Assembly (NCBI GenBank): GCA_961205875.1
Contig: OY540813.1
Span: forward strand, 1,087,001-1,151,000
Reading direction: 5' to 3'
Length of the DNA stretch: 64,000 bases
Source: Sialis fuliginosa
Taxonomy: Eukaryota; Arthropoda; Insecta; Megaloptera; Sialidae
The notes beneath the pieces were generated by a model. The model was not told the origin of the DNA. It saw only the letters and a program-made list of their open reading frames with translations, and ran no database searches. Shown here piece by piece: positions 22,281 through 56,505 of the stretch. Position 1 is the first letter of the stretch. Every line of letters starts with the position of its first letter. The translations under genes were made by a program, and so were the position numbers.

Positions 22281-24526
22281 TTAGAACTGAATTCTAAAAG
22301 GTCGCTTATTAGAATGTGTTAATTTATGTCTATTCAAATTTCCTTTATATTTACAACTATAATCACATTGGTCGCATTTAAAATGTCGTTCGTTAGAATG
22401 TATTAATTTATGTGTATTCAAGTGACTTTTTCGTTTAAAACTCAACTCACATTGTTCGCATTTAAAAGGTTTATTAGAATGTGATAATTTATGTAAATTA
22501 AAATTTCCTTTATGTCTACAACTATATTCACAATGATCGCATTTAAAAAGTTTATTATTAGAATGTGTTAATTTATGTCTATTCAAACGTCTTGTTTCAT
22601 TACAACTATATTCACATAGGTCGCATTTAAAAGGCCGTTCATTAGAATGTGTTAATTTATGTCTATTCAAACTTTTTTTTTCTTTACAACTATATTCACA
22701 TAGGTCGCATTTAAAAGGCCGTTCATTAGAATGTGTTAATTTATGTGCATTTAAACTTCCTTTTTGTTTACAACTAAATTTACATTGGTCGCATTTAAAA
22801 GGCCGTTCATTAGAATGTGTTAATTTATGTGTATTCAAACTTCCTTTTTCTTTACCACTAAATTCACATTGGTCGCATTTAAAAAGTCGTTGGTCAGAAT
22901 GTGTTAATTTATGTAAATTCAAGTGACTTTTTCGTTTAAAACTATATTCACATTGGTCGCATTTAAAAGGTCGCTCATTAGAATGTGTTAATTTATGCTT
23001 AGTCAAATTTCCTTTATGTGTACAACTATAATCACATTGGTCACATTTAAAAGGTCGTTCGTTAGAATGTGTTAATTTATGTCTATTCAAACTTCCTTTA
23101 TATTTACAACTATAATCACATTGGTCGCATTTAAAATGTCGTTCGTTAGAATGTATTAATTTATGTGTATTCAAGTGATTTTTTCGTTTAAAACTATATT
23201 CACATTGGTCGCATTTAAAAGGTCGCTCATTAGAATGTGTTAATTTATGTGTATTCAATATTTCTTTTCGTTTACAACTAAATTCACATTGGTCGCATTT
23301 AAAAGGTTGCTCGTTAGAATGTGTTAATTTATGTATAGTCAAATTTGCATTTCGTGTACAACTATATTTACATAGGTCGCATTTAAAAGGTCGCTCATTA
23401 GAATGTTTTAATTTATGTCTATTCCAAACTCTTTTATGTGGAGAACTATATTCACATAGGTCGCATTTAAAACGATGTTGGTTAGAATTCTTCTTCATAT
23501 TTACGCTTTGGTTAGTTAATTTTGACTCAGGGTTAACTGTTTCATATTTGTAATCAGTTTTTTTTTCATTGTTTGAATTTAAATATTCATCATTTTTTTT
23601 TATTTCTTCACTAATATCTTCATTTTCTTTTGGTTCATTTTTAATGTCGGTGTCTGGCAGATTTTCTTCTTTAACTTGCAAGTCCCCCTGCAAAACGACA
23701 ATAGTTAACTCGATAAAAATAAAAACGAGCATTTTATGGTTTTACGTGAATATAAATAAAATTTTGAGCTAATGTTTAAACGTACTCATTTTCAATACGA
23801 TATACTCAACAAAATATCATTTTATCAATAAAAAGAAGCATTTATATGGGAGTCTTTTGACCATTTTAGAAAATTAATATTAAAATATTGAATTTTATGC
23901 TTAAAAAAAGTCAAACAACAGTATTTTTATAAATTATTATAATTATTTTCAGTGCTTATAAATTTATGAGTTAATATTCATTTTCCCATGCCTTTTTTTA
24001 ATGCATCTGAAATGTATTTATTTCTATAACGAAAATAAAATTACATTTAATATGATTGTTTTGGAACCACTGTCTTCATTTACTTTTACATTTACGCATG
24101 CGCATAAAACAAATTTTAAAAGAAACGTTATTTTATGTTCTATTTACCTAACCTGAAATAGAATAATGTACATAATAGTAAACCAAATTAACAAAATAGC
24201 CTTATATTAATAACGAAATTCAAGTAATGACACTTTAAATAAAATCCACTTAATAACAATAACTTACTGTGATAATTTTGCACAAAATATTTAAAAGATA
24301 TACTGATGCGATGTACCACTGGACGATTTCTTTGTTTTTGCAGCATAAATAAAATATATAGTATTACCTACCATTACATAACCAAATAGATTAATCAATA
24401 TGTATTAACATTGTTTTTCATTACCTGGTTTTCTTGATTGTAATATATTGCAAATTCGTCATAGATTTCAACATCTTGCAGAAGATCGCTTTCATCTTGT
24501 ATATCTTCTTGTTTTACGTGAATCAT
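22281..24526 (-). CDS. ZNF-A: 14-finger C2H2 protein, two exons
   Basis: Predicted nuclear DNA-binding protein with unknown targets. Exon 1 24425-24526 (34 codons, MIHVKQEDIQDESDLL...) ends CAG|GTAATG. Exon 2 22281-23687 follows a TTTTGCAG acceptor. The join is phase 0, the intron 736 bp, the protein about 502 aa. Exon 2 opens with one acidic module (EENLPDTDIKNEPKEN), then 14 CX2CX12HX3H fingers joined mainly by SNERP. Fingers 4-5 and 13-14 are near copies (KYKGSLNRH / KYKGNLNRH), indicating block duplication inside the gene. The C-terminus stops at the start of a would-be fifteenth finger (RPFRIQF) and lacks the tail seen in D, E, G, H and J. The intron carries CGCATGCGC at 24095-24103; a fossil hAT end lies upstream at about 24731. 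It is the most downstream gene of the array. Confidence 0.9.
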
Positions 24527-25127
24527 TTTTGTACACTTTCAAGTCAAATCTTACAATATATAAATTAATTAAATAAAACAGCAACTCCGGAGACCGTTAT
24601 ACAAACAATATTAGGACTAACTATTACAAAGTCACTCTTAGAACTCACAGTCAGTAAAATACAACGGAAACTAATGTATGTAGTTCACAGATCACTCGCT
24701 AGTTGCCAATGGTGGACATCTGCTACATACCAGTGATTCTCAACAGTGACAGAATCGATTGAATTGACCGAAAACTAACCATAGAAAATAAGTCTTACTT
24801 TTAAATTACTTAAATAATTATATTGTTTATTTTCTACTTTTTTATACGATTATATAATATAAGATTGTATAATAACGGACTTTTACCTTTAACCCTGAAA
24901 TAATATACATATATTCCAAATTTCAAGTTTCTACGATAAATTGAAAAGGTCCAAATCCTGATATAATAATAATAATAATAATACATCTTTATTAAATAAT
25001 AAAATGCACACTTTTAATAATGTATTATTTATTTATGTACATAAAAATGAAATTTATTACACAAAAAAATCAGTATGGTTTAAAAAAACACTGTTAATAA
25101 CAAATGTACTTGATACTTCAAGTACTT

Positions 25128-27207
25128 TCACTGATTGTGAGTACTTGGTACTTGTATTTCAAGTATTTTTACTGAGTACTTTTGACAGCTCTGATTCAAA
25201 TTAGGTTTAAGTTCACTATTATATTCACGTTGGTCGCATTTAAAAGGTCGTTGATCAGAATGTGTAAATTTATGCAAAATCAAACTTCCTTTTTGTATAC
25301 AACTAAATTCACATTGGTCACATTTAAAAGGGCGTTGATTAGAATGTGTTAATTTATGTTCATTCAATCTAGTTTTTTGTCTACAGCTATAATCACATTG
25401 ATTGCATTTAAAAGGTCGTTGATCAGAATGTAGTAATTTATGTTCATTCAAACTTCTTTTTCGATTACTACTAAATTCACATTGGTCGCATTTATAAGGA
25501 CGTAGATCGGAATGTGTAAATTTATGTTCATTCAAACTTCTTTTTTGTGTATAACTCAATTCACATTGGTCGCATTTAAAAGGTCGTTGGTTAAAATGTG
25601 TTAATTTATGTTCATTCAATCTAGCTTGTCTTCTGCAACTATATTCACATTGGTCGCATTTAAATGGTCGTTGATTAGAATGTATTAATTTATGTGTATT
25701 AAAACTTTCTTTTCGTTTACAACTGAAATCACATTGGTCGCATTTAAAAGGTCGTTGGTTAGAATGTGTTAATTTATGGGTATTCAAACTTCCTTTTCGT
25801 TTAAAACTAAATTCACATTGGTCGCATTTAAAAGGACGTTGATTAGAATGTTTTAATTTATGTATATTCAAACTTCCTTTTCGTTTACAACTGAATTCAC
25901 ATTGGTCGCATTTAAAAGGTCGTTGATTAGAATGTGTTAATTTATGTTCATTCAATCTAGATTTTTCTCTACAACTAAATTCACATTGGTCGCATTTAAA
26001 AGGTCGCTCATTAGAATGTGTTAATTTATGTCTATTCAATCCAGCTTTTCGTTTACAACTAAATTCACATTGGTCGCATTTAAAAGGATGTTGATTAGAA
26101 TTCTTATTCAAATTCGCAATTTGGTTAGTTGATATTGATTCGCTGTCATCTGTTTCATATTCGTTATTAGTTTTATTTTCATTGGGTATATTTAAATATT
26201 CATCACTGTATTTTTTTTCTTCGCTAATATTTGTATTTTCTTTTGGCTCATTTTTAATGTCAGTGTTTGGCAGATTTTCTTCAACTGTTTCATATTTGTG
26301 ATAAGTTTTATTTTCATTATTTGAATTTAAATATTCATCACTAAACTTTGTTTCTTCACTAATTTCTTCGTTTTCTATTGGCTCATTTTTTATGTGATAC
26401 TCTGGTAGATATACTGCAACTGTTTCATATTTGTAATCAGTTTTATTTTCATTGTTTGAATTTAAATATTCATCACTGTATTTTGTTTCTACACTAATAT
26501 CGGTGTCTGGCAGATTTTCGTCTTTGACTTGCAAGTTTCCCTATAAAGCAACAATTGATAACTCGATAACTTTATATGAATTACATTTTTAGCTAATGTA
26601 TAATATAGGTATTTATTTTACAAAGTTTTTTTTTCAATACTTTCAACTCGACTAAATTTAATTCTATATGTATAAAAAGAAAATATGGGAACACGTTTAT
26701 CTTGATTTTATATTACACTTTTTTTCCTTTTCTAACATATAGCGTACCTTGTTTCTCCCCGAGAAATACCTTAAATAAAATTTCAAACATATACAATTAG
26801 AATTCTTGATATGGATCTTGACTTCTGGGTACAAGCCGCACTTTCAACAGAGCCCCGATAAAATGACCAAATTGATGCGTATATACCCAGAAGCATAGAT
26901 CCATTCCAACATATAATTAAAAACATTGAAAATGCTTGAGCGTAAAAATGTATTTTTATAACGAAGATAGCAACTATTTTATTTAAGACAATTGTTTTGG
27001 AACCGCTGTATCACTACGCTGTCAAACAGTACAATAACTGTAATAACCTATTTGCATTGTAAAACTACACGTATATTAAATACTATTCACATTTTATTTC
27101 ATTACCTGATTTTCTTGCTTATAACATGTTGAAAATTCTTCAAAATTTTCAATATTTTGAAAAAGATCATTTTCTACTTTTATATCATCTGGTTTCACGT
27201 GAATCAT
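25128..27207 (-). CDS. ZNF-B: 10-finger C2H2 protein with three acidic modules
   Basis: Exon 1 27106-27207 (MIHVKPDDIKVENDLF...) and exon 2 25128-26540 join in phase 0 across a 565-bp intron, giving about 504 aa. This is the only paralog with KPD instead of KQE at residues 5-7, so the first SUMO-type motif is lost. Exon 2 has three acidic modules, the first lacking the IKNEPKEN part, then ten intact fingers. A degenerate eleventh follows (CDQREYNSELKPNLNQ: second Cys and both His lost). Finger 6 (RRQARLNEH followed by the odd linker HFNQRP) is almost identical in DNA to finger 3 of ZNF-K. The intron lacks the CGCATGCGC palindrome present in most paralogs. A fossil hAT end lies at about 27392, with a Helitron-like repeat just upstream. 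Confidence 0.88.
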
Positions 27208-27926
27208 TTTTATACACTTTGAAGTCAAATCTTGCAATATTTAAATTAATTAAACAAAACTGTAACTCTGGACTTCGTAATCAAAACAATATCAATGTAA
27301 AATTAACAATCAATAGAGTACAGTAGAAAAATGAATGTATTTAGTTCCCTGATCGCTCGTAAGTTGCAAATGGAGGACATCTGCTACAAACCAGTGGTTC
27401 TCAACAATCAAGTCGATTGGATTTGCCGAAAACTGGTCATCCATAGTAATATTATAAATGCGAAAGTGTGTCTGTCCGTATGTTACCTTTTCACGGCTAA
27501 ACGGCTGAACCAATCTTGATGAAATTTGGCAGAGTGGTGGCTTGCATCCTGAGGAAGGACATAGGCTACTTTGTAACCCGAAAAAAATTTTTTTTTACAT
27601 AGGTTTTATGTCTGACAGTTTCTACCTAACCTCTAAAATAATTATTTACAACAAAATTAATAAAAAAAATAATATATTTACAAAGTAACAATTGAACCAA
27701 GATAGAAGAAAAATGCACACTTTAAATAATGTAATATTTATTCTTGAGTATATAAAAAAATACATTTATTACAATAAATACATTCTTAAAAAAAAAAACA
27801 CTGGACTACAAAAAAAGTTCTTGTACGTAAAAAGGTCAGAAATTACGATATTTACATTTCTGACATCGTAAATTATTTTATTTAAAAAAAATTTCTTGCT
27901 TCCACTTTAATGTAATAATGCGAAAA

Positions 27927-29444
27927 TCATTTATTGGAATGTGTTAATTTATGCCTATCCAAACTAGGTTTGTTTTTGTAACTATATTCACATTGGTCGC
28001 ATTTAAAAGGATGTTTATTCCAATGTGTTAATCTATGTGCATTCAAATTCCATTTTCGTCTACAACTATATTCACATCTGTCGCATTTAAAAGGTCGTTG
28101 ATCAGAATGTGTTAATTTATGTGTATTCAAACTACTTTTTCGTGTGCAACTATATTCACATTGGTCGCATTTAAATGGGCGTTCATTGGAATGTAATAAT
28201 TTATGATCTTTCAGACCAATTTCTCGTTTACAGCTAAATTCACATTGGTCGCATTTAAAAGGTTCCTGATCAGAATGTATTAAATTATGTGAATCCAAAT
28301 GGCTTTTTTGTGTGGAACTATATTTACAATAATTGCATTTAAAAGGTCGTTTATTTGAATGTTTTAATTTATGTGCATATAAACTTGTTTTTTGATTAGA
28401 ACTATATTTACAAAGATCGCATTTGTAAGGTCGTTGATTTGAATGTGTTAATTTATGTCCAATTAATATATGTTTTCGTTTACAACTAAATTCACATTGG
28501 TCGCATTTAAAAGGTCGTTCATTAGAATGTGTTAATTTATGTATTTTCAAATAAGTTTTTTGTTTACAGCTAAATTCACATTGGTCGCATTTAAAAGGTC
28601 GCTCATTAGAATGTGTTAATTTATGTATATTTAAAGTTGTTTTTAGTTTACAACTATATTCACATACGTCGCATTTAAAAGGATGTTGATTAGTTAATAC
28701 TGACTCATTGTTATCATTTTTTGAATTTAAATATTCATCACTTTTTTTTATTTGTTCACTAATGTCTTCATTTTCTATTGGTTCATTTTTAATGTGATAC
28801 TCTGGCAGATATACTTTAACTGTTTCATATTTGTTATCAGTTATATTTTCACAGTTTGAATTTAAATATTCATCACTGTTTTTTGTTTCTTCACTAATAT
28901 CTTCATATTCTTTTGGCTCATTTTTAATGTCGATGCCTGGTAGATTTTCTTCTTTTATCTGCGATTCTTCCTGTAAAGCGACAAAAATTAACTCGATATA
29001 AATTAAAACGAGCAATTATGTCTTAACTAAAAATTTAAACCAATGTTTTATAAAATATTGATTTGGTTCTTGGCTTCTGAGTTCAAACCGCACTTTCTAT
29101 ACAGCCTTGAAGATGTCCACTGGAATGTGCGACGAAATGTACATTTCAACATATATTTAAAAACATTGAAAATGCTTGAGGACAGAAATTTATTTGTATA
29201 ACGAAAATAACAATACTATTGTTTTGGAACCGCCGTTTCTTTTACTTTTACAACTACGCATGCGCTTGGAATGTCAAATAGATTTGTATTTTAAAACTAC
29301 ATAATATATAGATTAATTAATATTAACATTTTATTTCATTACCTGGTTTTCTTGCTTATAATATATTGAAAATTCTTCATAACTTTCAATATCTTGAAGA
29401 AGATCGCTTTCTACTTTTATATTTTCTTGTTTTACGTGAATCAT
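27927..29444 (-). CDS. ZNF-C: 9-finger C2H2 protein
   Basis: Exon 1 29343-29444 (MIHVKQENIKVESDLL...) and exon 2 27927-28970 join in phase 0 over a 372-bp intron, giving about 381 aa. Exon 2 starts EESQIKEENLPGID, with two acidic modules. It then goes almost directly into finger 1 (NESVLTNQHPFKC), missing the NLKKNSNQ spacer of the others. Nine fingers, all with complete C2H2 ligands. Fingers 4 and 5 use divergent frameworks (CDLCKYSSNQK, CNYCKYSSTQK), and finger 5 has HNLIH. It ends THSNK right after the last His, with no tail. The most diverged finger set of the array, hence perhaps an older branch. Intron palindrome CGCATGCGC at 29257-29265; hAT end at about 29640. Confidence 0.88.
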
Positions 29445-30041
29445 TTTTGTACACTTTCAAGTCAAATCTTACAATATATAAATTAATTAAATAAAACTGC
29501 AACTCTGGATTTTGTAATCTAAGAAATATTAGAAATATTACAAAATATTTAATTAACAATCAGAAAAATTTAACAAAAACTAGTGTATATAGTTCTCTGA
29601 TCACTCGCTAGTTGACAATGGTGGACATCTGCTAAAAACCAGAGGTTCTCAACCGCGGTAAAGTCAATTGCATATGCCGAAAATTGACCACAGAAATAAG
29701 TCTAATATTTGAATTTAATCTTTTGTATATAAACGATTCATTATTATGGGTACTAATACGTATTTTGTTAATTTTTTTTCTTTCTTATACGGTCACATAT
29801 ATTTAATAAGTATAGTATAAGAAATTCTAATAAAACACATTTCTTCTAATTAGAAATTTTAGCGGTAATATATCTAAAACGATTATAGTTAAATCAACAA
29901 TATAAGGAACTGGAATAAAGAAAATGCACACATTATTTATATTATTTATTTATGAATACATAAAAATTACATTCATTACAAAAAAAAAAAACAATTTGGC
30001 TTAAAAAATACTGCTAATAACAAATGGTCACAAAAATAAAT

Positions 30042-30715: not shown

Positions 30716-30859
30716 CATTTAGTTACTTATTTAGTACTTCAAAAAATGCATAGAAAACGTCGATTTTTTCCCTCACAGTGGCTTTCTCCCTGAAGAAACC
30801 ACAAAGCAAAAAGTAGCTGTCAACTTGAAAAAATAGTCATTTAAAGAAATCCGGTATTT

Positions 30860-32768
30860 TTATTTTTTTTCGACACACTGCCTAAACCATTCACTCAAAA
30901 CATCATTAGGATGTGTTAATTTATGTAAGTCTAAACAATTTTTTTGTTTACAAGTATAATCACATTGGTCGCATTTAAAAGGTCGCTCATTAGAATGTGT
31001 AACTTTATGTTGTTTCAAAGATGTTTTTAGTTTACAACTATACTCGCATTGATCACACTTAAAAGGGCGTTCATTAGAATGTTTTATTTTATGCATATTC
31101 AAATTTCCTTTTTGTTTACAGATATAATCACATTGGTCGCATTTAAAAGGTCGTTGATTTGAATGTGATATTTTATGATCATATAAATTAGATTTTCGTT
31201 TACAACTAAATTCACATTGGTCGCATTTGAAAGGTCGTTGATTAGAATGTTTTAATTTATGCGAATTTAAATTACATTTTAGTCTACAACTATATTCGCA
31301 TTGGTTACATTTAAAAGGGTGTTGATTAGTACATGTTAATTTATGTGTATTCAAAGTTTCTACTTGTTTACAACTGAATTCACATTGGTCACATTTAAAA
31401 GAATGCGTTATTTTATGTGTAGTCAAAGTTTCTTTTTGTTTACAACTAAATTCACATTGGTCGCATTTGTAAGGACGTTTATTTGAATGTATTATTTCAT
31501 GATCATATAAATTAGACTTTCGTTTACAACTAAATTCACATTGGTCGCATTTAAAAGGTCTTTGGTTAGAATGTATTAATTGATGAGATTTCAAATTACA
31601 TTTTAGTCTACAACTGTATAAACATTGGTCACATTTAAAAGGGTGTTGGTTAGAATGTGTTAATTTATGTGTTTTCAAACTTCCTTTATATCTACAACTA
31701 TATTCACATTGGTCGCATTTAAAAGGTCGTTGGTCAGAATGTTTTAATTTATGATATTTCAAATTACATTTTAATCTACAACTGTATTCACATTGGTCGC
31801 ATTTAAAAGGGTGTTGATTAGAATACTTTTTCATATTCACGGTCTGGTTTGTTAATGTTGACTCAGGGTGAACTGTCTCATATTTGTAATCAATTTTATT
31901 TTCATTGTTTGAATTTAAATATTCATCACTTTTTTTTATTTCGTCACTATTATCTTCATTTTCAATAGGTTCTTCTTTAATGTGGTACTCTGGTAGATAT
32001 ACTGCAACCGGTTCATATTTGTAATCAGTTTTATTTTCATTGTTTGAATTTAAATATTCGTCACTTTTTTTAATTTCTTCACTAATCTCTTCATTTTCTT
32101 TTGGTTCATTTTTAATGTCAATCTCGGGAAGATTTTCTTCTTTAATTTGCAAGTTTTCCTGCAAAACGACAATTGATAACTCGATATTAATAAAAACAAG
32201 AATTTTCTGCCTTAACTAAAATGTTGAGCTAATGCTTATTACAGGTTATATTTCACAAACAAACAACAAACACAAACAAGCTTTTAGGATTCTGCGGTGA
32301 TATTGATATGGAACTTGGCGTCTGGGTACAAGCTGCACTTTCAATACAGCCCTGAAGATGTCCACTGCAATGTGCGACGAAACGTTAGCTGATAGAATGA
32401 CCAAATCACCGCGGTTTATACCCAAAAACCAAGCTCCATTCCAATATGTAGTTACAATTGTTGAAAATGCTTCAGTGCAAAAATGTATTTATTTATATAA
32501 CGAAAACAATAATTTCATTTAATACAATTGTTTTGGAACTGCTGTCTTCTTTTACATTTACTTTCGCGCATGCGCGTGACATGTTAAACATTTTGTTACC
32601 CATCAATACATAACCAAATACTAATATTACTCTGATTTATTCAATATTAACACTGTATCTCATTACCTGGTGTTCTTGGTTGTAATATATTGCAAATTCA
32701 TCATGAATTTCAACATCTTGCGGAAGATCGCTTTCTTCTTGTAGATTTTCTTGTTTCACGTGAATCAT
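30860..32768 (-). CDS. ZNF-D: 11-finger C2H2 protein with one altered finger
   Basis: Exon 1 32667-32768 (MIHVKQENLQEESDLP...) and exon 2 30860-32158 join in phase 0, intron 508 bp, about 466 aa. Two acidic modules, with IKEEP in place of IKNEP in the second, then 11 fingers. The linker before finger 6 has lost four residues (HKITHSFKCDQC), and finger 6 ends HKLTC, so it has C2HC ligands. Fingers 4 and 8 share KRKSNLYDH, and 1, 3 and 7 share RLKCNLxxH, so a finger block was duplicated. The C-terminal tail PNDVLSEWFRQCVEKK is related to those of E, G, H and J. Intron palindrome CGCGCATGCGCG at 32565-32576; hAT end about 32980. Confidence 0.9.
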
Positions 32769-33336
32769 TGTTGTACACTTTCAAGTCAAATCTTACAATA
32801 CTTATATTAGTTATATAAATAAAACTGCAACTCTTTTTTAAGTAATCCAAACAATATTATTAGGACTATTACAAAGTGTTAAATAGTTAAATTAACAATC
32901 AATAGAGTACAGCGGAAACTGGTGTATTGTAGTTCACTGATTTCTCGCTAGTTACAAATGGTGGACATCTGCTACATACCAGTGGTTCTCAACCATGACA
33001 CAGTCGATTGAATGTGCCAAAACAATTCATTGTTCGGTAATATTCATGTAATATTCTAAGTTATTAAGTATAACATTACAAAATTAACTTTTTTAATTTT
33101 TTTATGTATTAGGTTTTTAAGAAACTTATATATTTTTAAAGCAATAACAATTGAACAAACAATATAAAGAGGTAGAAGAAAAATACACTTTTAATAATAT
33201 ATTATTTATTTATGAATGTATAAAAATTACATTTTTTACATAAGATACAATATTCTAATACATATATAATATTACAAAAAAAGTACCTATCTACTTTAAA
33301 AATAATAAAGAACTTTAAAGAAATATAGTATTTTTA

Positions 33337-35332: not shown

Positions 35333-36160
35333 TGTTGTACACTTTCAAGTCAAATCTTACAATACTTATATTAGTTATTTAAATAAAACTGCAATTATTT
35401 TTTAAGTAATCCAAACAATATTATTAGAACTATTACAGAGTTAAATTAACAATCAATAGAATACAGCGCAAACTGGTGTATTGTAGTTCACAGATTTCTC
35501 GCTAGTTACAAATGGTGGACATCTGCTACATACCAGTGGTTCTCAACAGAGACACTATCGATTGAATGTGCCGGAAACTGGTCATAGAAAATAAATCTAA
35601 TTTTATAATTTATTTATAAAAACAAATCATTGTTCAGGTAATATTCATGTAATATTCTAAGTTATTAAGTATAACATTACAAAATTAAAGAACTGAACTT
35701 TTTAAATTATTTTATGTATTCGGTTTTTATGAAACATATTTTTAAAGCAATAACAATTGAACAAACAATATAAAGAGATAGAAGAAAAATGCACTTTTAA
35801 TAATATATTATTTATTTATGAATGTATAAAAATTACATTTTTTACAAAAGATGCAATATTCTTAAAAAAAAATACTACAAAAATAAATCCTTGTACCTCT
35901 AGTTTGTATGTATTTGAAGATCAAAAATTACGATATAATCAGTTAAGACTTATCAATTTATTTTTCAAAATTTTAAACGAAATAATAACTACATAATAAT
36001 TAATGTCAAACGACACTGTACTTTTTCTATACAAAAATATTCAAATTTACAAAGTATTGATTAGATCAAATTTGCCATGGCCAACTATATACCCCGTAAA
36101 AAACTATTACTAAAAAAGTACCCTATCTACTTTCAAAATAATAAAGCATTTTAAAGAAAT

Positions 36161-43023: not shown

Positions 43024-43544
43024 TTTTGTACACTTTGAAGTCAAATCTTATATATAAATTATTTGAATAAAACTGCAACTTCGTAATCCAAACAATATTA
43101 GAATTATTACAAAATATTCGACAGCAGAAACTAAATATGTAGTTCATTGATTACTCGCTAGTTGCAAATGGTGGACATTTGCTACAAACCAGTGGTTCTC
43201 AACCCGGGCACAGCCGATTGAAACTTTTAAAATTTATAAAAACATTTCATTGTTCTGGTTACTTTTATATATTTTGTACATTCTTCGGCTTTCTCAGTAA
43301 TATTAAATATAACATTATAAAATTAAAGAACTCTATTTTATTTAAAAATATATATAATAGTCTTATTTACGTATCAAGTTTCGATTTAAACATGCTAAAA
43401 CCCAAACTAATATTAAAATTTAACTCAAATTTTAATATTACACGTCAAAATCGTGATATATAATTCTTACGACTTGACATAAAAAACCTAACCCCAAAAC
43501 ATTAACAAATACTACAAATTAAATTAACTTTATTACTGAAAACA

Positions 43545-43695: not shown

Positions 43696-43928
43696 TATTA
43701 AGATAGATAAAAATGCACACATTTAATAATATATTATTTATTTAAGAATATAAGAAATAATATTTTTTACAAAATATAAAATATTCTTAAAAAAACACTG
43801 TAAATGACAAAATCTTACGATTTTATCTACTTTAAAAAATAATAAAGAATTTTAAAGAAATCCGGTATTTTAATTTATTACGAAACATTATTGGGATGTG
43901 TTAATTTATGTGAATTTAAATATCTTAT

Positions 43929-46510
43929 TTATTTACAACTATATTCACAATGATTACATTTAAAAGGGCGTTGGTTAGAATGTGTTAATTTATGTGTTTT
44001 TAAACTTCCTTTATATCTACAACTAAATTCACATTGGTCGCATTTAAAGGGTTGTTGATCAGAATGTTTTAATTTATGAGATTCCAAACTACATTTTCGT
44101 TTGCAACTGTATTCACATTGGTCGCATTTAAAAGGGAGTTGATCAGAATGTGTTAATTTATGTAAATCTAAATATCTTTTTATTTTACAACTATATTTAC
44201 AATGATTACATTGAAAAGAGCATTGTTTAGAATGTGTTAATTTATGTAAATCTAAATTTCCTTTTCGTTTACAACTATAATCACAATGGTCGCATTTAAA
44301 AGGTCGTTGATTAGAATGTGTTAATTTATGTAAATCTAAATTAGATTTTCGTTTACAACTATATTCACATTGGTCGCATTTAAAAGGGCGTTGATCAGAG
44401 TGTGTTAATTTATGTCTACTCAAATCTCCTATTCTTTTACAACTAAATTCACATTGGTCGCATTTAAAAGGTCGTTGGTCAGAATGTGTTAATTTATGAT
44501 ATTTCAATATATTTTTTTCTCTACAACTAAATTCACATTGGTCGCATTTAAAACGTCGTTGATTAGAATGTTTTAATTTATGAGGTTCCAGATTACCTTT
44601 TAGTTTACAACTGTATTCACATTGATCACATTTAAAAGGGCGTTGATCAGAATGTGTTAATTTATGATAATATAAATTTCCTTTTCGTTTACAACGAAAT
44701 TCACATTGGTCGCATTTAAAAGGGCGTTGATCAGAATGTATTAATTTATGGTCATATAAATTTCCTTTTCGTATACTACTATATTCACATTGGTCGCATT
44801 TAAAAGGGCGTTGATCAGAATGTGTTAGTTTATGTCTACTCAAATCTCCTGTTTTTTTACAACTAAATTCACATTGGTCGCATTTAAAAGGTCGTTGGTT
44901 GGAATTCTTCTTCAAATTCACGCTCTGGTTAGTTAATATTGGCTTACAGTCAACTGTGTCATATTCGTAATGTGTTTTATTTTCATTGTTTGAATTTAAA
45001 TATTCATCACTTTTTTTTATTTCTTCACTAAAGTCTTCATTTTCTATCGATTCATTTTTAATGTGGTACTCTGGCAGATATACTTCAACTGTTTCATATT
45101 TGTTATCAGTTTTATTTTCACTGTTTGAATTTAAATATTCATCACTGTATTTTGTTTCTTTACTAATATCTTCGTTTTCTTTTGGTTCATTTTTAATGTG
45201 AGTGTCTGGTATATTTTCTTCTTTAACATCCAAGTTTCCCTGCAAAACAACAATTGAAAACTGGATATGAATAAAAACGATCATTTCATGTCTTAACTAA
45301 AATTTTAAGCCAATGCTTATTATAAGTTATATTTCAAAAAAGTTTTATAAAATTTCCCACATATACAAGCTTTTAGGATTCTGCGGTGTTTTCTATATGG
45401 ATCTTGACTTCTGGGTACAACCCGCACTTTCAATAGAACCCTGAAGATGTCCACTGCAATGTGCGACAAAACGTTAGCCGATAGAATTGCCATATTACCG
45501 TGGCTTATACCTAGAAGCCAAAATCGAATTCAACATATAGTTAGAAACGTTGAAAATGCTCGAGTGCGAGAATGTATTATATAAAAAAATTTCCTTTAAT
45601 ACAATTGTTTTGGAACCGCTGTTTATTTTATTTTTACACAAACGCATGCGCGTGAGTGGTATGTTCAACAATGACATTACCGACATTACAGAATATTTAG
45701 GTTTGCCAGAAACTCTAGATGTAAAAAGAGAAATATTCCATTTAAAAAAGAGGACATTTATTTTGTATTAATTATTTTAATAAGTAACTTTTGTTATAGC
45801 TGTTTTACGTACATTTAAACTAAAAATAATTAAATATTTATTCACTGTTGCTAAGGAAAAATAGCGTCCTAGGCTTGGTTCCCATTGCAGACCTTGTTAA
45901 AAGACCAAAATCTGAAATAATTTTTTTAGCAAATTTTAATTGTCTCATTAATATCTTCGCTTACACTTTTGAAAATTCGTGATTCCAGAAATTAAGGGCC
46001 CTGGTCACCGGTAGCATATAAAATAGCCCCTAAAATCTAACCCATGTATTTTTGGATTTTTTTTTAAATTCTATGACACATGAAAGATATGAGATAATCA
46101 GGGCTTTTTCTCCAGAAAGAAACTAAAAAAATAATTACTAAATGTCGTTTTTAGGTCCTTTTTAGTTTGTGATTTTTATCTTGAAATATCAAATTGAAAG
46201 TGTGGACACCTTTTTATGGGGTATACGTATTTACAAACACTAATATAAAAACCAAGATTAAGTCAAAATATGCTGCATTAAAAAAAAAGAAAGATAAATT
46301 CTCAAAAAGAGAACTTATTATCTTTAAAAAAGATATTCTGGCAACCCTAAGTATGTTGTAATACTATAATATAACGTATTAATTAATACAAATAATGTAT
46401 TTTATTACCTTGTGTTCTTGTTTAAAATATTTTGAAAATTCTTCATGAATGTCAACATCTTGCAGAAGATCGCTTTCTTCTTGTATATCTTCTTGTTTCA
46501 CGTGAATCAT
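43929..46510 (-). CDS. ZNF-I: 11-finger C2H2 protein ending inside its last finger
   Basis: Exon 1 46409-46510 (MIHVKQEDIQEESDLLQDVD...KYFKQEHK) and exon 2 43929-45239 join in phase 0, about 470 aa. The intron is long (1169 bp) because of an insertion between about 45.7 and 46.37 kb. Two acidic modules, then 11 full fingers and a twelfth broken by an in-frame TAA right after CNHCEYSCK. The sequence past the stop still reads as the rest of the finger and the family tail start (IRYLNSHKLTHPNNV), so this stop is recent. Finger 9 has a diverged entry (CSFQCNHCKYSC). Intron palindrome CGCATGCGCG at 45643-45652; hAT end about 46691. Confidence 0.85.
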
Positions 46511-46802
46511 TGTTGTACACTTACAATACTTATATTAATTATTTAAATAAAACTGTAACTCTGGACTTCGTCATTAAATCAATATTATTAGGACAATTAC
46601 AAACTATTCAACTAACAGTGTATAAAACAGCAGAAACTGACGTCATTGATCACTCGCTAGTGGCAAATGGTGTGGACATTAGCAACAAACCAGTAGTTCT
46701 CAACCGCGGCACAGTCGATTGAAAATGCCGATTAATTATTCTAATTTTAAAAATTTATATAAACATTTCATTAACATTATTACTGAATTGGATTGAAGAC
46801 AT

Positions 46803-47117: not shown

Positions 47118-48791
47118 TTATTTTTTTTCGATAGACTGTTTAAACCATTCACTCAAAACATTATTGGGATGTGTTAATTTATGTAAATCTAAACATTTTT
47201 TTCGTTTACAACTATATTCACATTGGTCGCATTTAAATGGTCGTTGATCAGAATGTGTTAATTTATGAGATTCCAAACTACATTTTAGTTTACAACTGTA
47301 TTTACATTTGTCACATTTAAAAGGGCGTTGATCAGAATGTGTTAATTTATGTAAATCTAAATATCTTTTTTTTTTACAACTATATTCACAATGATTACAT
47401 TTAAAAGGGCGTTGGTAAGAATGTGTTAATTTATGATCATGTAAACTAAATTTTCGTTTACAAATAAATTCACATTGGTCGCATTTAAGAGGGCGTTGAT
47501 CAGAATGTGTCAATTTATGTATACTTAAATTTCCTTTTTGTCTACAACTAAATTCACATTGGTCGCATTTAAAAGGTCGTTTACTAGAATGTGTTAATTT
47601 ATGATTATTCAAATTTCCTTTTTGTCTACAACTAAATTCACATTGGTCGCATTTAAAAGGTCGTTGATCAGAATGTATTAATTTATGTCTTGTCAAATCT
47701 CCTGTTCTTTTACAACTAAATTCACATTGGTCGCATTTAATTTGATTGGAATTCTTCTTCAAATTCACGGTCTGGTTAGTTAATATTGGCTCACAGGTTT
47801 CATATTTGTAATTTATTTTATTTCCATTGTTTGAATTTAAATATTCATCACTGTGTTTTGTTTCTTCACTAATATCTTTGTTTTCTTTTGGCTCATTTTT
47901 AATGTGAGTGTCTGACAGATTTTCTTCAACTGTTTCATACTTGTGGTTAGTTTTATTTTCATTGTTTGAATTTAAATATTCATCACTTTTTTTTATTTCT
48001 TCACTAATGTCTTCATTTTCTATTGGCTCATTTTTTATGTGATACTCTGGCAGATATACTTCAACTGTTTTATATTTGTAATTAGTTTTATTTTCATTGT
48101 TTGAGTTTAAATATTCATCACTGTATTTTATTTCTTCACTAATATCTTCGTTTTCTTTTGGCTCCTTTTTAATGTGAGTGTCTGGCATATTTTCTTCTTT
48201 AACATCCAAGTTTCCCTGCAAAACGACAATTGATAACTGGATATGAATAAAAACGAGCATTTCTGCCTTAAATAAAATTTTGAGCAATGCTTATTATAAG
48301 TTATATTTCAAAAAAGTTTTGTAAAATTTCCCACATATACAAGCTTTTGGGATTCTGCGGTGTTTTCCATATGGATATTGACTTCTGAGTACAAGCCGCA
48401 GTTTCAATACAGCCCTGAAGATGTCCACTGCAATGTGCGACGCGGTTTATATCCAGAAGCCAAGATCCATTCCAACATACATATAGTTAGAAACGTTGAA
48501 AGTGCTAAATTGCGAAAATGATTTATTGCATAACAAAAAAAATAATTTCATTTAATATAATTGTTTTGGAACTGCTGTTTCTTTTACTTTTCCACACACG
48601 CATGCGCTTGGAATGTCAAACATTACAGTGCATTGTAAAACTATATTATGTATTTAATTAATACAAATACAAATTTTGTCTTTTATTACCTTTTGTTCTT
48701 GTTTAAAATATTTAGAAAATTCTTCATGAATTTCAACATCTTGCAGAATATCGCTTTCTTTATGTATATTTTCTTGTTTCACGTGAATCAT
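47118..48791 (-). CDS. ZNF-J: 7-finger C2H2 protein with three acidic modules
   Basis: Exon 1 48690-48791 (MIHVKQENIHKESDIL...KYFKQEQK) and exon 2 47118-48215 join in phase 0, intron 474 bp, about 399 aa. Three acidic modules give an unusually long N-terminal half relative to only seven fingers. Finger 1 is entered by NSNQIKCDQC, lacking the RPF residues. Fingers 2 and 3 are near copies (RQKGNLNNH, RQKGNLSIH). The tail PNNVLSEWFKQSIEKK is kept. Intron palindrome CGCATGCGC at 48599-48607; hAT end about 48984. Upstream of its promoter is a block copied from, or shared with, the G-H spacer. Confidence 0.88.
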
Positions 48792-48998
48792 TTTTGTATA
48801 CTTTGAAGTAAAATCTTACAATATATAAATTATTTTAATAAAATAGCAACTCTGGACTTCACAATTCAAACAATATTAAGACTATTACAAACTATTTATT
48901 TAACAGAGTATAAAACAGTAGAAACTAATGTATGTAGTTCATTGGTCACTCGCTAGTTGCAAATGGTGGACATCTGCTACATACCAGTAGTTCTCAAC

Positions 48999-49298
48999 CG
49001 GGACACAGTCGATTGAATGTGCCGAAAACTTGTTATCGAAAATAAGTTTAGTTTTTAAAATTTATAAAAACATTTCATAGTTCTGGTCACTTTTATATAT
49101 ATTTTGTATATTTTTTGGTCTTTCCGTAATATTGTAAAACTTATTAAGATAGAAGAAAAATGCACTGTTAATAATATATTATTTATTTATGAATATACAT
49201 TTTTTTACAAAATATACAATATTCTTAAAAATGCACTGTGTATAAGGGGTCAATATGATTAGATCAAATATGCCATAGCCAACTATTTGCCCCGTAAA
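48999..49298. repeat. Duplicated spacer block (partner 40801-41104)
   Basis: The ~300-bp block from ACACAGTCGATTGAATG through TATGCCATAGCCAACTATTT is nearly identical to 40801-41104 (spacer between ZNF-G and ZNF-H). It ends at a second GTCGATTGAAAATGCCG, the J-type upstream sequence. The join therefore lies within the shared GTCGATTGA, as expected of recombination or conversion between spacers. Confidence 0.8.
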
Positions 49299-49791: not shown

Positions 49792-50204
49792 CTTAGATTA
49801 GGAAAAACTATGGATACATAACAACCAATGCCAGTCCGTATATGAAAGTGTTACCAAAATTTGTCGGCGGCCATCTTTTTTTAATTGTCAAAATCGCATA
49901 TTAACCCATAAGCGTCAGTTGAAAATTTATAATATGCAAATATGCTTTAAATTACAATTGAATTTAGTATGTATGAGAGATAATAGTTCCAAATAGACAT
50001 TTCTCTGTTAATCAATTATCACTGAAAAACTTTTAAACTCAATATAAAACATCTGTTATTAATTAATTTTATAATTCAAAACAATTGATATTTATTTTTA
50101 AATCTGAATGATACGTCAATGATCCGTGAAGCGATTCTTCGTGGTGCGATATGGTAACAACGCTAGGTAATGTGTTATTTGTCCTTTATTATTCCTTGTC
50201 TAAG
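49792..50204. mobile_element. hAT-type MITE inserted in the last exon of the ZNF-K/L ancestor (K copy)
   Basis: The ends CTTAGATTAGG and CCTTGTCTAAG are inverted. Flanks ATTGGGAT (49784-49791) and ATTGGAAT (50205-50212) form an 8-bp duplication with one mismatch. In the other genes this site is continuous (ATTGGGATGTGTTAATTTATG, encoding the last finger and the PNN tail). The old tail-coding sequence survives, stranded, at about 49750-49791. The element's right end supplies the present stop of ZNF-K. Confidence 0.85.
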
Positions 50205-53032
50205 ATTGGAATGTGTTAATTTATGTGAATCTAAATATCTTTTTTGTTTACAACTATATTCACAATGATTACATTTAAAAGGTCGTTGATCAGAATGTGT
50301 TAATTTATGTCTACTCAAATTTCCTATTTGTTTACAACTAAATTCACATTGGTCGCATTTAAAAGGGTGTTGATCAGAATGTGTTAATTTATGTATATTC
50401 AAATGTCCTGTTCTTTTACAACTAAATTCACATTGGTCGCATTTAAAAGGGCGTTGATCAGAATGTTTTAATTTATGTTTACTCAAATCTCCTGTGCTTT
50501 TACAACCAAATTCACATTGGTCACATTTAAAAGGGCGTTGATCAGAATGTGTTTTTTTATGTGTACTCAAATTTCCTTTTATTTTACAACTAAATTCACA
50601 TTGGTCGCATTTAAAAGGGTGTTGATCAGAATGTGTTAATTTATGTATATTCAAATTTCCTGTTCTTTTACAAGTAAATTCACATTGGTCGCATTTAAAA
50701 GGGCGTTGATCAGAATGTGTTAATTTATGTCTACTCAAATTTCCTATATGTTTACAACTAAATTCACATTGGTCACATTTAAAAGGTCGTTGGTCAGAAT
50801 GTGTAATTTTATGTATACTCAAATTTCCTTTCATTTTACAACTAAATTCACATTGGTCGCATTTAAAAGGTCGTTGGTTAGAATGTGTCAATTTATGATC
50901 ATATAAACTAGATTTTCGTTTACAACTAAATTCACATTGGTCGCATTTAAAAGGGCGTTGATCAGAATGTGTTAATTTATGTTTACTCAAAATTCCTCTT
51001 TGGTTACAACTAAATTCACATTGGTCGCATTTAAAAGAATGTTGATTAGAATGTGTTAATTTATGTCTTCTCAAATCTCCTGTTCTTTTATAACTAAATT
51101 CACATTGGTCGCATTTAAAAGGTCGTTGGTCAGAATGTTTTAATTTATGAGATTTCAAATTAGTTTTTTCACTACAACGAAATTCACATTGGTCGCATTT
51201 AAAAGGTCGTTGGTTAAAATGTGTTAATTTATGTTCATTCAATCTAGCTTGTCTTCTGCAACTATATTCACATAGGTCGCATTTAAAAGGGCGTTGATCA
51301 GAATGTATTAATTTATGTTTTCTCAAATTTCCTGTGCTTTTAAAACTAAATTCACATTGGTCGCATTTAAAAGGTCGATGGTCAGAATGTTTTAATTTAT
51401 GAGATTTCAAACTACATTTTAGTTTACAACTGTATTCACATTGGTCGCATTTAAAAGGGTGTTGTATGGAATTATTCTTCAAATTCTCGCTCTGGTTAGA
51501 TAACATTGGCTTACAGTCAACTGTTTCATATTCGTAATATATTTTATTCCCATTGTTTGCATTTAAATATTCATCACTGTATTTTGTCTCTTCACTTATA
51601 TTTTCGTTTTCTTTTGGCTCATTTTTAATGTCGATGTCTAGCAGATTTTCTTCTTTAACTTGCAAGTCCCCCTGCACAACAACAATTGATAAGTCGATAA
51701 AACGAGCATTTCACGCTTTTACGTGAATATGAATAGAATTTTGAGCTAATGTTCAAAGGTAGTCATTTTCATAATCTTTAATACTCAATAAATTATCATG
51801 CTAGTTATTAATCGTTTTAGCGTTCCAAATTATTATTATTTTTGCAAAAAAAATAAGAAGGGTTAAATTCCGCTTGTTTGGTTATACATTTTAACGTGCT
51901 ACATGGCCTGATATAAAAATTATTATTTTTTACCTAGCTTTAGCTTCTTAGCCCTCCCCCCCTTAAAAACTATTTAAATGTTCAGAAAAAAATTTCAATT
52001 TTTTAACTTATTAAGATATTTTACTTTGAAAAGGACGGACGGATGACAATGTGAGATTAATAGGGTTTCTTCGGAACCCTAAAAATGTTTAAATCCATGT
52101 GATCGCATAGTATCTGTACAAAAATGAAAATATCAAATTTTTATAATTATTTATTTAAAATATTTTTATTTTAAGTAATATACTTTATCGGTGTTTTTTC
52201 GAAAATTAAAACTTAAGCTAAATAAAATTAAACATTTGGAGAATACTAATCATATGTGTTATAATAAATTTCGAGATTGACTGTAACAATGAGGCTTAAA
52301 AAAACATAGATTCATCATAAAATAATTTGGGACGCTAAAACGTTAAATAGCAATCATTCTGCATGAATAAAAGGAAGCATTTATATAGGGGTCTTTTGGC
52401 CATTTTAGAATATTAATTTTAAAATATCGTACTGTATGCTAAGAAATAAAATGTCTTTTAATACAATTGTTTTGGAACTGCTGTTTTATTTTACTTTTAC
52501 ATTTACGCATGCGCATGATGAGATAGGTAACTTTTGACCAATCAGCGGCCGCGTGGGATGACGTCACCCTGAGGAACCTTTCAACCGTTGTTTACAAACT
52601 ATTAGATATTTGTATGTATTTAAAAAAAAGTAAATATTATTGTTTATTACAGAAGCACAAATTATTACATATATTTCTTCATAAAAATTTTAAAATGATG
52701 TGAGAAATCAATGCTTAAAGAAAATACATTTGTTGGTTTTACATTTAAAAAAACACTTGTTTAAAACTATAATTTATAATAATAAAAATTTAGATTTAAA
52801 ACTCATTACACTATCAATATCAAATGAAAATATTTAAAAACAACTTACAATAAATCAGCTTAACTAAAATAAAGGGCAAATATAGTTTGACAGCTATTTA
52901 TAATGTCAAGAGTTCCTCATATTTCATTACCTGGTATTCTTGCTTGTAATATATTGCAAATTCATCATGAATTTCAACATCTTGAAGAAAATCACTTTCT
53001 TCTTGTATATCTTCTTGTTTCACATGAATCAT
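50175..53032 (-). CDS. ZNF-K: 15-finger C2H2 protein, C-terminus supplied by a MITE
   Basis: Exon 1 52931-53032 (MIHVKQEDIQEESDFL...YYKQEYQ) and exon 2 50175-51671 join in phase 0, about 532 aa, the longest of the array. The intron is 1259 bp, enlarged by foreign sequence between roughly 51.75 and 52.4 kb. One acidic module (NANNGNKIYYEYETV), then 15 fingers, mostly joined by SDQRP. The last residues LRQGIIKDK and the stop lie inside the hAT-type MITE at 49792-50204. Finger 3 (RRQARLNEH with linker HFNQRP) is absent from the sister ZNF-L and nearly identical to ZNF-B finger 6. Intron palindrome CGCATGCGC at 52506-52514; hAT end about 53250. Confidence 0.9.
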
Positions 53033-53659
53033 TTTTGTACACTTTCAAGTCAAATCTTACAATATATAAATTATTTAAGTAAAACTGCAACTCTGGATTT
53101 CGTAATCCAAACAATATTAGGGCTATAACAAAGTATTCAATTTGCAACCAGTAGAATACATACTAGTGTGTTTAATATATGCTACAACGGAAGCTGTTGC
53201 AGTATTAGTTCACTCGATAACCACCACAAATGGACGCCATATACTAAACCAGTGATTCTCAACAAAACAAATCTATTACAATTGTACCAACAATATAAGG
53301 AAATAGAAGAAAAATGAAAACATTTAAAATAATTATTTATTTATTAACTTATAAAAATTATAAAAAACAATGTTAATAACATAGAACCACAACTTTAGAA
53401 GTATTTGGACGTTCTTAAACCCAAACTAATATTCAAATAAATCGTGATGTTAATTTTGATTTTAAACTTTGGATCAAAACCTTGATATGATATTCGAATT
53501 GTGGTTCTGTGTAATAATTGAAAAATTAAATCACCCCCCCCCCCACAACTGCACACTTTTATTATTGTTATTATTTATTTATCAACATAAAAATTATATT
53601 TAAAACAAAAACAAAAAAATAAACAATGTTAATATCATAGTACCACAAATTTAAAAGTT

Positions 53660-54491: not shown

Positions 54492-54705
54492 TTTCAATTG
54501 AATTTAGTATGTATGAGATAGTTCCAAATAAACATTTATCTGTCAAAAAAATTTGAAATACTTTTAAACTCAATATAAAACATCTGTTATTAATTAATTT
54601 TATAATTCAAAACAATTGATATTTATTTTTAAATCTGAATGATACGTCAATGATCCGTGAAGCGATTCTTCGTGGTGCGATATGGTAACAACGCTAGGTA
54701 ATGTG

Positions 54706-56505
54706 TTATTTGTCCTTTATTTTTCCTTGTCTAAGATTGGAATGTGTTAATTTATGTGAATCTAAATATCTTTTTTGTTTACAACTATATTCACAATGAT
54801 TACATTTAAAAGGTCGTTGATCAGAATGTGTTAATTTATGTCTACTCAAATTTCCTATTTGTTTACAACTAAATTCACATTGGTCGCATTTAAAAGGTCG
54901 TTGGTTAGAATGTGTTAATTTATGTTTACTCAAAATTCCTGTTTGGTTACAACTAAAATCACATTGGTCACATTTAAAAGGGCGTTGATCAGAATGTGTT
55001 AATTTATGTCTACTCAAAATTCCTGTTTGGTTACAACTAAATTCACATTGGTCACATTTAAAGGGGCGTTGATCAGAATGTGTTAATTTATGTCTACTCA
55101 AAATTCCAGTATATTTACAACTAAATTCACATTGGTCACATTTAAAAGGTCGTTGGTCAGAATGTTTTAATTTATGATCATATAAACCAGATTTTCGTTT
55201 ACAACTAAATTCACATTGGTCGCATTTAAAAGGTCGTTGGTTAGAATGTGTTAATTTATGATCATATAAACTAGATTTTCGTTTACAACTAAATTCACAT
55301 TGGTCGCATTTAAAAGGGCATTGGTCAGAATGTGTAATTTTATGTGTACTCAAATTTCCTTTCATTTTACAACTAAATTCACATTGGTCGCATTTAAAAG
55401 GTCGTTGGTTAGAATGTGTTAATTTATGATCATATAAACTGGATTTTCGTTTACAACTAAATTCACATTGGTCGCATTTAAAAGGGCGTTGATCAGAATG
55501 TGTTAATTTATGTTTACTCAAAATTCCTCTTTGGTTACAACTAAATTCACATTGGTCGCATTTAAAAGGGCGTTGATCAGAATGTGTTAATTTATGTCTT
55601 CTCAAATCTCCTGTTCTTTTAAAACTAAATTCACATTGGTCGCATTTAAAAGGTCGTTGGTCAGAATGTTTTAATTTATGAGATTTCAATTTAGTTTTTT
55701 CACTACAACGAAATTCACATTGGTCGCATTTAAAAGGGCGTTGATCAGAATGTGTTAATTTATGTCTTCTCAAATTTCCTGTTCTTTTATAACTAAAGTC
55801 ACATTGGTCACATTTAAAAGGTCGTTGGTCAGAATGTTTTAATTTATGAGATTCCAAATTAAATTTTAGTTTACAACTGTATTCACATTGGTCGCATTTA
55901 AAAGTGTGTTGTATGGAATTCTTCTTCAAATTCACGCTCTGGTTAGTTAATATTGGCTTACAGTCAACTGTTTCATATTCGTAATATATTTTATTTCCAT
56001 TGTTTGCATTTAAATATTCATCACTGTGTTTTGTCTCTTCACTAATATCTTCGTTTTCTTTTGGCTCATTTTTAATGTCGGTGCCTAGCAGATTTTCTTC
56101 TTTAACTTGCAAGTCCCCCTGCAAAACAACAGAATATTAATTTTGATAATATCGAACTATATGTCTAAAAATAAAATAAGTCAAACAGTATTGTTTTTAA
56201 AATGCATCTAAATTCTAAATTATATTTATTAGGGAATAAAAAGAAAACTTATTTTAATACAATTGTTTTGGAACTGCTGTCTTTTCTTCTTTTACATTCG
56301 CGCATGCGCGTAACATGTCAAATATTTCATTACCTATCAATACATAACCTTATAGTAGGTAATATTACTTTGATTATTCAATAATACAACTGTATTTCAT
56401 TACCTGGTATTCTTGTTTGTAATATATTGCAAAATCATCATGACTTTCAACATTTTGCGGAAGATCACATTTTTCTTGTATATCTTCTTGTTTCACATGA
56501 ATCAT
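54706..56505 (-). CDS. ZNF-L: 14-finger C2H2 protein, sister of ZNF-K
   Basis: Exon 1 56404-56505 (MIHVKQEDIQEKCDLP...YYKQEYQ) and exon 2 54706-56118 join in phase 0; the intron is the shortest of the array, 285 bp. About 504 aa. One acidic module, then 14 fingers. KRKSSLYDH occurs at fingers 6 and 8 with KRKSGLYDH at 9, and NQTGILS(R/K)H occurs at 11-12, all pointing to recent finger duplication. The C-terminus LRQGKIKDK is MITE-derived, as in K, and ~185 bp of 3' flank is almost identical to that of K. Intron palindrome CGCGCATGCGCG at 56299-56310; hAT end about 56700. This is the most upstream gene of the array. Confidence 0.9.

Follow-up and report, generated by a model that had tools for sequence, protein, structure and literature searches.

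Introduction

Across metazoans, zinc-finger (ZNF) numbers track retroelements (PMC10547256), and the described families closest to the locus reported here are the FiNZ-ZNFs of cyprinids, the KRAB-ZNFs of tetrapods, the ZAD-ZNFs of insects, and the ZF271-like/APEZ proteins of Hemiptera. The locus is a run of twelve C2H2 ZNF genes in a stretch of 64,000 bases (the window; GC content 28.6%) from the megalopteran Sialis fuliginosa (contig OY540813.1 of assembly GCA_961205875.1, positions 1,087,001 to 1,151,000 of the forward strand). Our analysis identifies it as a genuine ZNF cluster, under selection and in recent expansion.

The FiNZ-ZNFs, described as unique to cyprinids and given a role in transposon repression, are the most similar in organization: they too have two exons, that is, a short acidic N-terminal exon (28 aa, no similarity to known domains) and a finger exon, their genes are concentrated in one chromosomal region, and four of seven FiNZ clades were found to be under positive selection, and contact residues were enriched in two of them (PMC10547256). 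The tetrapod KRAB-ZNFs share with the Sialis genes the short N-terminal exon(s), the single finger exon, the tandem clusters, and the diversification of contact residues (in part PMC10547256). The ZAD-ZNFs likewise form tandem clusters and have a disordered linker between the N-terminus and the fingers; in flies, positive selection acts mainly in this linker and not in the fingers (PMC7655104). The ZF271-like/APEZ expansions resemble the Sialis cluster in that they are species-specific, include some tandem clusters (4–8 genes), and have neither KRAB nor any domain besides the fingers (PMC6444547).

Results

Twelve intact two-exon genes

The genes (numbered from g1, at the highest coordinates, to g12, at the lowest) all lie on the minus strand within positions 22281–56505 (Table 1). 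Each has an exon 1 of 30–36 aa that starts with MIHVK and ends at an AG/GTAAT donor, a phase-0 intron of 285–1259 nt, and an exon 2 of 855–1497 nt (including the stop codon) that is free of internal stops in all twelve genes; the intron acceptor is CAG in eleven genes and TAG in g11, where it was placed manually. The encoded proteins (318–532 aa) contain a total of 129 strict C2H2 fingers (6–15 in each) and 24 acidic modules in exon 2 (1–3 in each). The initial annotation, an earlier reading of this DNA, had described just such a set of two-exon genes, with the same start, intron phase, and ranges of modules and fingers, and had likened the layout (short N-terminal exon, one finger exon) to that of KRAB- and ZAD-ZNFs; its counts hold for all twelve genes, and so does the likeness. 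A permissive search of all six frames for exon 1 returned the 12 genes and two unrelated plus-strand matches. The gene models themselves are predictions from sequence conservation alone.

We simulated neutral drift of exon 2 for three of the twelve genes (g1, g8, and g11) at 5% per lineage. Without indels, the frame remained open in 3–4 of 1000 runs; with indels, at the same rate, it did so in 0 of 1000. Because the three simulated exons rarely stay open and the pairwise intron distance exceeds 0.10 in 62 of the 66 gene pairs, we rule out both chance open frames and a decayed array.

The 3′ ends are less uniform. One C-terminal tail is common to g3, g5, g6, g8, and g9, and a different one to g1 and g2; g4, g7, g10, g11, and g12 have neither. 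In g4 (43887–43931), an in-frame stop cuts the last finger, the residues of which (HKLTHPNN) continue in frame behind the stop. An Rfam search gave no match.

Diversification of the DNA-contact residues

In the canonical C2H2 model, helix positions −1, 2, 3, and 6 contact the bases. In the cluster these are the most variable finger positions (position 5 is next), and 97 of the 129 contact quartets are distinct. Over all pairs of fingers (127 of the 129; two without 28 complete sense codons were dropped), the proportion of nonsynonymous differences (pN) divided by the global proportion of synonymous differences (pS) is 1.69, 2.09, 1.61, and 2.37 at helix positions −1, 2, 3, and 6, respectively; the corresponding values for the metal ligands and for helix position 4 are 0.00–0.09.

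We then matched fingers within five disjoint gene pairs, which cover 10 of the 12 genes (g10 and g12 were left out), and obtained 40 finger pairs. The contact pN/pS is 1.85 (bootstrap, 1.43–2.45; 0 of 1000 replicates at or below 1), versus 0.33 over the 23 other positions. The fingers had first been paired by framework identity; because pairing by similarity could lower pS, we repeated the comparison in three further ways. When pairing and pS were taken from separate halves of the framework, the median contact pN/pS was 1.60 (range 1.14–2.46, 200 splits); pairing by order only gave 1.86 (46 pairs), and all 7343 inter-gene finger pairs gave 1.93. For 300 random four-column sets from the framework, the median was 0.37 and the maximum 0.86. 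This comparison of contact with framework substitution had been proposed in the initial annotation, and its outcome (~1.9 at the contacts, ~0.33 in the framework) fits the reading given there.

The contact excess is of the kind that characterizes KRAB-ZNF and FiNZ-ZNF evolution and, by these counting methods, is found in 10 of the 12 best-matching gene pairs listed. For single gene pairs the ratio is 6.28 in g7–g8 (from four fingers with three synonymous differences only), 2.60 in g1–g2, 2.25 in g3–g4, and 1.32 in g5–g11. The excess is uneven, and two observations weigh against a general excess: the ratio is below 1 for g6–g9 (0.88) and g6–g8 (0.91), and the contact pN of g1–g2 (0.27) is smaller than the intron distance of these genes (0.58), the exons of which were probably pulled together by conversion. 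The frame and framework are under purifying selection; positive selection on the contact residues of these paralogues is likely, and not proven, because counting methods were applied to paralogues.

The linkers between fingers are mostly S[N/D][Q/E/K]RP, not the TGEKP that is usual in KRAB-ZNFs. A PDB search with exon 2 of g8 identified 146 distinct sequences at E ≤0.001, the top one among the matches listed being CTCF (8.7e-43); the likeness to CTCF, ZNF568, PRDM9, and other solved arrays is limited to generic finger sequence and is uninformative about the N-terminus or the targets.

Growth of the array and exchange of fingers

The upstream regions can be aligned across all twelve genes. Each contains one copy of a 16-base block, GGTTGAGAACCACTGG, with 0–2 mismatches, that ends ~165–220 bases ahead of the ATG; the block occurs nowhere else in the window (12 matches in total versus 0.17 expected, with ≤3 mismatches permitted). 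Its reverse strand, CCAGTGGTTCTCAACC (12 sites, 24730–56714), resembles a hAT transposon end; we do not claim that the block derives from a transposon (a hAT terminal repeat) because the window contains no inverted partner for it.

In a tree of the upstream stretch and the N-terminal coding DNA, the clades {g1, g2}, {g3, g4, g5}, and {g6, g7, g8, g9} each correspond to a contiguous run of genes; the deepest forks are weakly supported, and the closest pairs within clades, g3–g5 and g6–g9, are not directly adjacent. By intron alone, the closest pair is g7–g8 (distance 0.05). This disagreement between intron and tree is compatible with conversion or repeated duplication. The genes are neighbors, each encodes at least five fingers, and relatives are contiguous, as in a tandem polydactyl C2H2 ZNF cluster; we conclude that the array arose by local tandem duplication of the whole unit, that is, the upstream block, exon 1, the intron, and the finger exon.

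Single fingers appear to have moved as well. Although g2 and g11 occupy separate parts of the array and have an intron distance of 0.85, they share an identical tract of 93 nt, slightly more than one finger; the 25-base steps that flank the tract are 60–96% alike, apart from the two outermost on one side (24–28%). Long identical tracts also occur within genes (109 nt in g5, 86 nt in g12, 75 nt in g1, and 74 nt in g2). Fingers thus appear to have been copied both between and within genes.

A palindromic fold-back element is present in two copies in the window, 15352–16113 and 30050–30727, the second of which is located between g9 and g10. The arms (378 and 287 nt) are 90–91% complementary with 6 nt between them, and the copies are 95% alike and in opposite orientation.

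An acidic N-terminus with SUMO-type sites

The stretch ahead of the fingers has 108–194 residues, 21–27% of them acidic, with a net charge of −11 to −29; all twelve N-termini are on the disordered side of the charge–hydropathy boundary. The acidic modules contain the segments IKxEP, ENEDISEE, and SDEYLN.

A lysine in the context ψ-K-x-E (ψ is V, I, or L), followed by acids, is the consensus for a SUMO acceptor. The twelve proteins have 48 [VIL]Kx[DE] sites (3–5 per protein), in excess of the number expected by chance (mean 8.3, maximum 17, in 2000 shuffles); gene by gene, the observed count was reached in 1 to 99 of 5000 shuffles, and the reversed motif occurs three times. The sites comprise the IKxE of the modules, a VKQE in exon 1, and a VKEE that opens exon 2. 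The six residues after each site contain 2.3 acids, versus 1.5 in all six-residue windows. We compared 23 of the 24 modules (the first module of g11 was dropped by a filter that also demanded the lysine; no other module failed it): the lysine is present in all 23, the acid at +2 is E in 22 and D in one, ψ is I in 22 and M in one, and x is any of six different residues. An invariant lysine and a conserved acid around a variable x are what a SUMO consensus would predict. The pN/pS is 0.52 for the module (23 modules) and 0.71 for exon 1 (10 of 12; g5 and g6 were dropped for their other lengths).

Pfam searches yielded no KRAB, ZAD, BTB, or SCAN match in the exon-2 frames of g1, g6, and g11 (E up to 1) and no domain at all, these four included, in the N-termini of g1, g3, g8, and g11 (E up to 10); across the members scanned (g1, g3, g6, g8, and g11), no KRAB or ZAD (PF07776) domain was found. 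Matches to DUF7123 (E 0.01), SUS_EPBD (0.067), and C1_1 within the fingers (6.8e-05) are below the curated cut-offs and were taken as compositional.

Searches for relatives and other features of the window

Relatives were sought with exon 2 of g8 as the sole query in one scan of prokaryote genomes, one scan of viral records, and the phage and plasmid records. None of 28 pattern matches in the prokaryote genomes and neither of two in the viral records was confirmed, and the phage records contained no relative. The plasmid records contained two distant finger matches (27.6 and 32.7% identity). The first is a C2H2 finger protein in a Salmonella plasmid record (CP074271.1; best place 193094–193732), aligned in two segments that cover 79% of g8 exon 2; the record is possibly misassembled or contaminated.

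Elsewhere, the window contains four tandem arrays (2082–2608, 2924–3527, 16980–17672, and 58163–58918) with periods of 170, 143, 150, and 156 bases, respectively, and 3–5 copies each (90–94% matches). An open stretch on the minus strand (376–696) matches PAX below the threshold (E 0.013; 15.9 bits versus a cut-off of 22) and looks like one exon of a paired gene of the eyegone type, suggestive of an arthropod genome; the style of the fingers likewise fits an insect.

Table 1. Positions in the window of the exons, upstream blocks (located by motif search of the window), and shared finger-sized tracts of the twelve genes.
Feature	Position	Strand	Remarks
g1 upstream block	56699..56714	-	GGTTGAGAACCACTGG
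g1 exon 1	56404..56505	-	34 aa, MIHVKQED...; MIHVK start, AG/GTAAT donor
g1 exon 2	54706..56118	-	1 module, 14 fingers
g2 upstream block	53249..53264	-	
g2 exon 1	52931..53032	-	34 aa
g2 exon 2	50175..51671	-	1 module, 15 fingers
g2 finger-sized tract	51181..51273	-	identical to g11 25558-25650
g3 upstream block	48984..48999	-	
g3 exon 1	48690..48791	-	34 aa
g3 exon 2	47118..48215	-	3 modules, 7 fingers
g4 upstream block	46690..46705	-	
g4 exon 1	46409..46510	-	34 aa
g4 exon 2	43929..45239	-	2 modules, 11 fingers; stop within a further finger
g5 upstream block	43189..43204	-	
g5 exon 1	42916..43023	-	36 aa
g5 exon 2	41169..42428	-	3 modules, 9 fingers
g6 upstream block	40787..40802	-	
g6 exon 1	40499..40588	-	30 aa
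g6 exon 2	38855..40165	-	2 modules, 11 fingers
g7 upstream block	37846..37861	-	
g7 exon 1	37535..37636	-	34 aa
g7 exon 2	36161..37015	-	2 modules, 6 fingers; shortest array of all
g8 upstream block	35533..35548	-	
g8 exon 1	35231..35332	-	34 aa
g8 exon 2	33337..34728	-	2 modules, 12 fingers
g9 upstream block	32979..32994	-	
g9 exon 1	32667..32768	-	34 aa
g9 exon 2	30860..32158	-	2 modules, 11 fingers
g10 upstream block	29639..29654	-	
g10 exon 1	29343..29444	-	34 aa
g10 exon 2	27927..28970	-	2 modules, 9 fingers
g11 upstream block	27391..27406	-	
g11 exon 1	27106..27207	-	34 aa
g11 exon 2	25128..26540	-	3 modules (first without the IKxE part), 10 fingers
g11 finger-sized tract	25558..25650	-	identical to g2 51181-51273
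g12 upstream block	24730..24745	-	
g12 exon 1	24425..24526	-	34 aa
g12 exon 2	22281..23687	-	1 module, 14 fingers

Discussion

Our best explanation for the whole, to which we give not quite an even chance, is a young, diversifying cluster of DNA-reading proteins that repress via SUMO-recruited silencers. Each protein would read a different DNA sequence, most likely in changing or repeated DNA, e.g., transposons, and the bound DNA would be repressed. Once on DNA, the disordered acidic N-terminus, with its ψ-K-x-[DE] sites, would be conjugated to SUMO, and SUMO-binding silencing factors (SetDB1 and partners) would be recruited along the Su(var)2-10/Bonus route of insects; a KRAB-type domain would be dispensable in such a scheme. 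The parts of this explanation differ in strength: that the cluster binds DNA with diversifying contacts is highly probable, that the proteins act in repression is somewhat probable, and both SUMO as the recruiting handle and transposons as the main targets are tentative assignments, each rather more doubtful than not.

Work in Drosophila provides the precedent for the proposed route. Repression by Bonus needs SUMOylation of one N-terminal site, the loss of which weakens SetDB1 binding (PMC10672805); for transposons, Su(var)2-10 has been proposed as the recruiter of the SetDB1 homologue, and a 'SUMO spray' of many SUMOylated proteins as the means by which silencers are held there (PMC9406493). 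A human study that implicates SUMO motifs in repressive domains is cited in PMC9890238.

Several points weigh against the SUMO-and-transposon explanation. The 48 sites are not independent because they derive from some three or four ancestral sites. Many lysine columns outside ψ-K-x-E are conserved as well as those within it, the sites are not under stricter conservation than their surroundings, and seven further module positions (E8, S13, K17, D20, E21, Y22, and N24) are as invariant across the 23 modules as the SUMO-site lysine. In the literature, SetDB1 is mainly found with the unmodified form of Bonus, by far the more abundant one (PMC10672805), and a systematic Drosophila screen saw no significant enrichment of SUMO motifs in repressive domains (PMC9890238); TRIM33, a TIF1 protein, and not SUMO, was suggested as the partner of FiNZ-ZNFs, for which the correlation of expression with transposons is not significant (PMC11603059); and repeat content in Hemiptera is not correlated with the ZF271-like expansion (PMC6444547). 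The word SUMO is not used in either FiNZ paper (PMC10547256, PMC11603059), and none of the papers listed in our literature searches links SUMO motifs to such ZNF expansions, a weak statement of absence because it was judged on titles and the openings of abstracts.

The chief rival to the SUMO reading is that the N-terminus recruits a cofactor through a short linear motif, either the acidic stretch around SDEYLN or, in exon 1, the acidic-aromatic DEFAIYY, that the ψ-K-x-E sites are incidental, and that the proteins may be activators as well; we consider this rather unlikely. Acidic together with aromatic residues are typical of activation domains. Among the invariant module residues, K17, D20, E21, Y22, and N24 speak for a function of this stretch, as do S19 and L23 (22 of 23 modules) and, for exon 1, F25, Q31, and E32, which are invariant in an alignment of 12 rows; what speaks for the sites is that [VIL]Kx[DE] and the acids that follow it are more frequent than composition explains. 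In an AlphaFold model of the N-terminal part of g8 exon 2, the only helix of at least four residues (25–36) covers SDEYLN, but its pLDDT is only ~50, the best block (51–60, pLDDT 77) has neither helix nor strand, and the overall mean is 52. A model of the whole exon 2 was set aside (mean pLDDT 48.9, finger helices absent); given the low pLDDT and a whole-exon model that is poor even for the fingers, we treat the helix as weak evidence.

A second rival concerns the targets rather than the N-terminus: the genes could be host-gene, heterochromatin-organizing, or architectural regulators, as are Drosophila ZAD-ZNFs, with no transposon arms race, and the contacts could diversify as duplicates take different host targets. 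The diverse roles of ZAD-ZNFs in heterochromatin organization, without specific targeting of transposons, would fit, as would the lack of a correlation between ZNF and retroelement copy numbers in Diptera (both PMC10547256). However, ZAD-ZNFs are selected mainly in the linker (PMC7655104), and the Sialis genes present the reverse, i.e., diversifying contacts (~1.9) and a conserved N-terminus (0.52 for the module and 0.71 for exon 1); we judge this alternative unlikely. Slightly less probable still is the most specific version of the SUMO explanation, an independent counterpart of KRAB-ZNF genome defense in which KRAB-KAP1 would be replaced by a self-contained SUMO tether of repeated IKxEP modules, the copy number of the modules (1–3) would set the amount of SUMO displayed to SetDB1-type silencers, and fingers would be swapped as cassettes to follow changing transposons. 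Finally, the array might be read as a functionless tandem repeat that decays or evolves neutrally, for which the stop inside the last finger of g4 and the five genes without the C-terminal tails of other members could be cited; this reading is very improbable and is refuted as a general account by frames and splice sites that are intact in all twelve genes, the ≤4 of 1000 neutral runs in which the three simulated exons stayed open, and the framework pN/pS of 0.33, even if single members may be decaying.

How novel is the cluster? The initial annotation had called it an independent expansion by tandem growth with a different N-terminal module; the contiguous clades and the upstream block in all twelve genes support the tandem growth, and the lack of Pfam KRAB, ZAD, BTB, and SCAN matches in the members scanned supports the different module and separates the cluster from KRAB- and ZAD-ZNFs. 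To this the present analysis adds the ψ-K-x-E-centered modules, the upstream block itself, and the exchange of fingers between distant members. To name the cluster a candidate for an undescribed system, as the initial annotation did, was an overstatement: Hemiptera are known to have tandem finger-only expansions (ZF271-like/APEZ, PMC6444547), and cyprinids a family whose two exons are a short acidic one and a finger exon (FiNZ, PMC10547256). Differences from both remain, as judged by comparison of descriptions. The clustered Oncopeltus genes vary in exon structure (PMC6444547), whereas the twelve Sialis genes share one; FiNZ-ZNFs are a vertebrate family, to which the Sialis family adds repeated acidic modules in exon 2, and knockdown of FiNZ derepresses transposons, the repression of which would be a candidate role for the Sialis cluster. 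The best reading of the substitution pattern is that the cluster evolves in the mode of KRAB- and FiNZ-ZNFs (diversifying contacts, conserved front end), unlike the ZAD-ZNFs of flies.

Panfilio and co-workers did not settle with which partner, in the absence of KAP-1, the ZNF expansions of insects act, and called for a search for other partners (PMC6444547). In Sialis, the module with its repeated SUMO-type sites is a concrete candidate, and the twelve paralogues, with one, two, or three modules, form a set in which it may be tested; the cluster is also an instance of contact diversification in the style of KRAB- and FiNZ-ZNFs in an insect, where the well-studied ZAD-ZNFs evolve otherwise.

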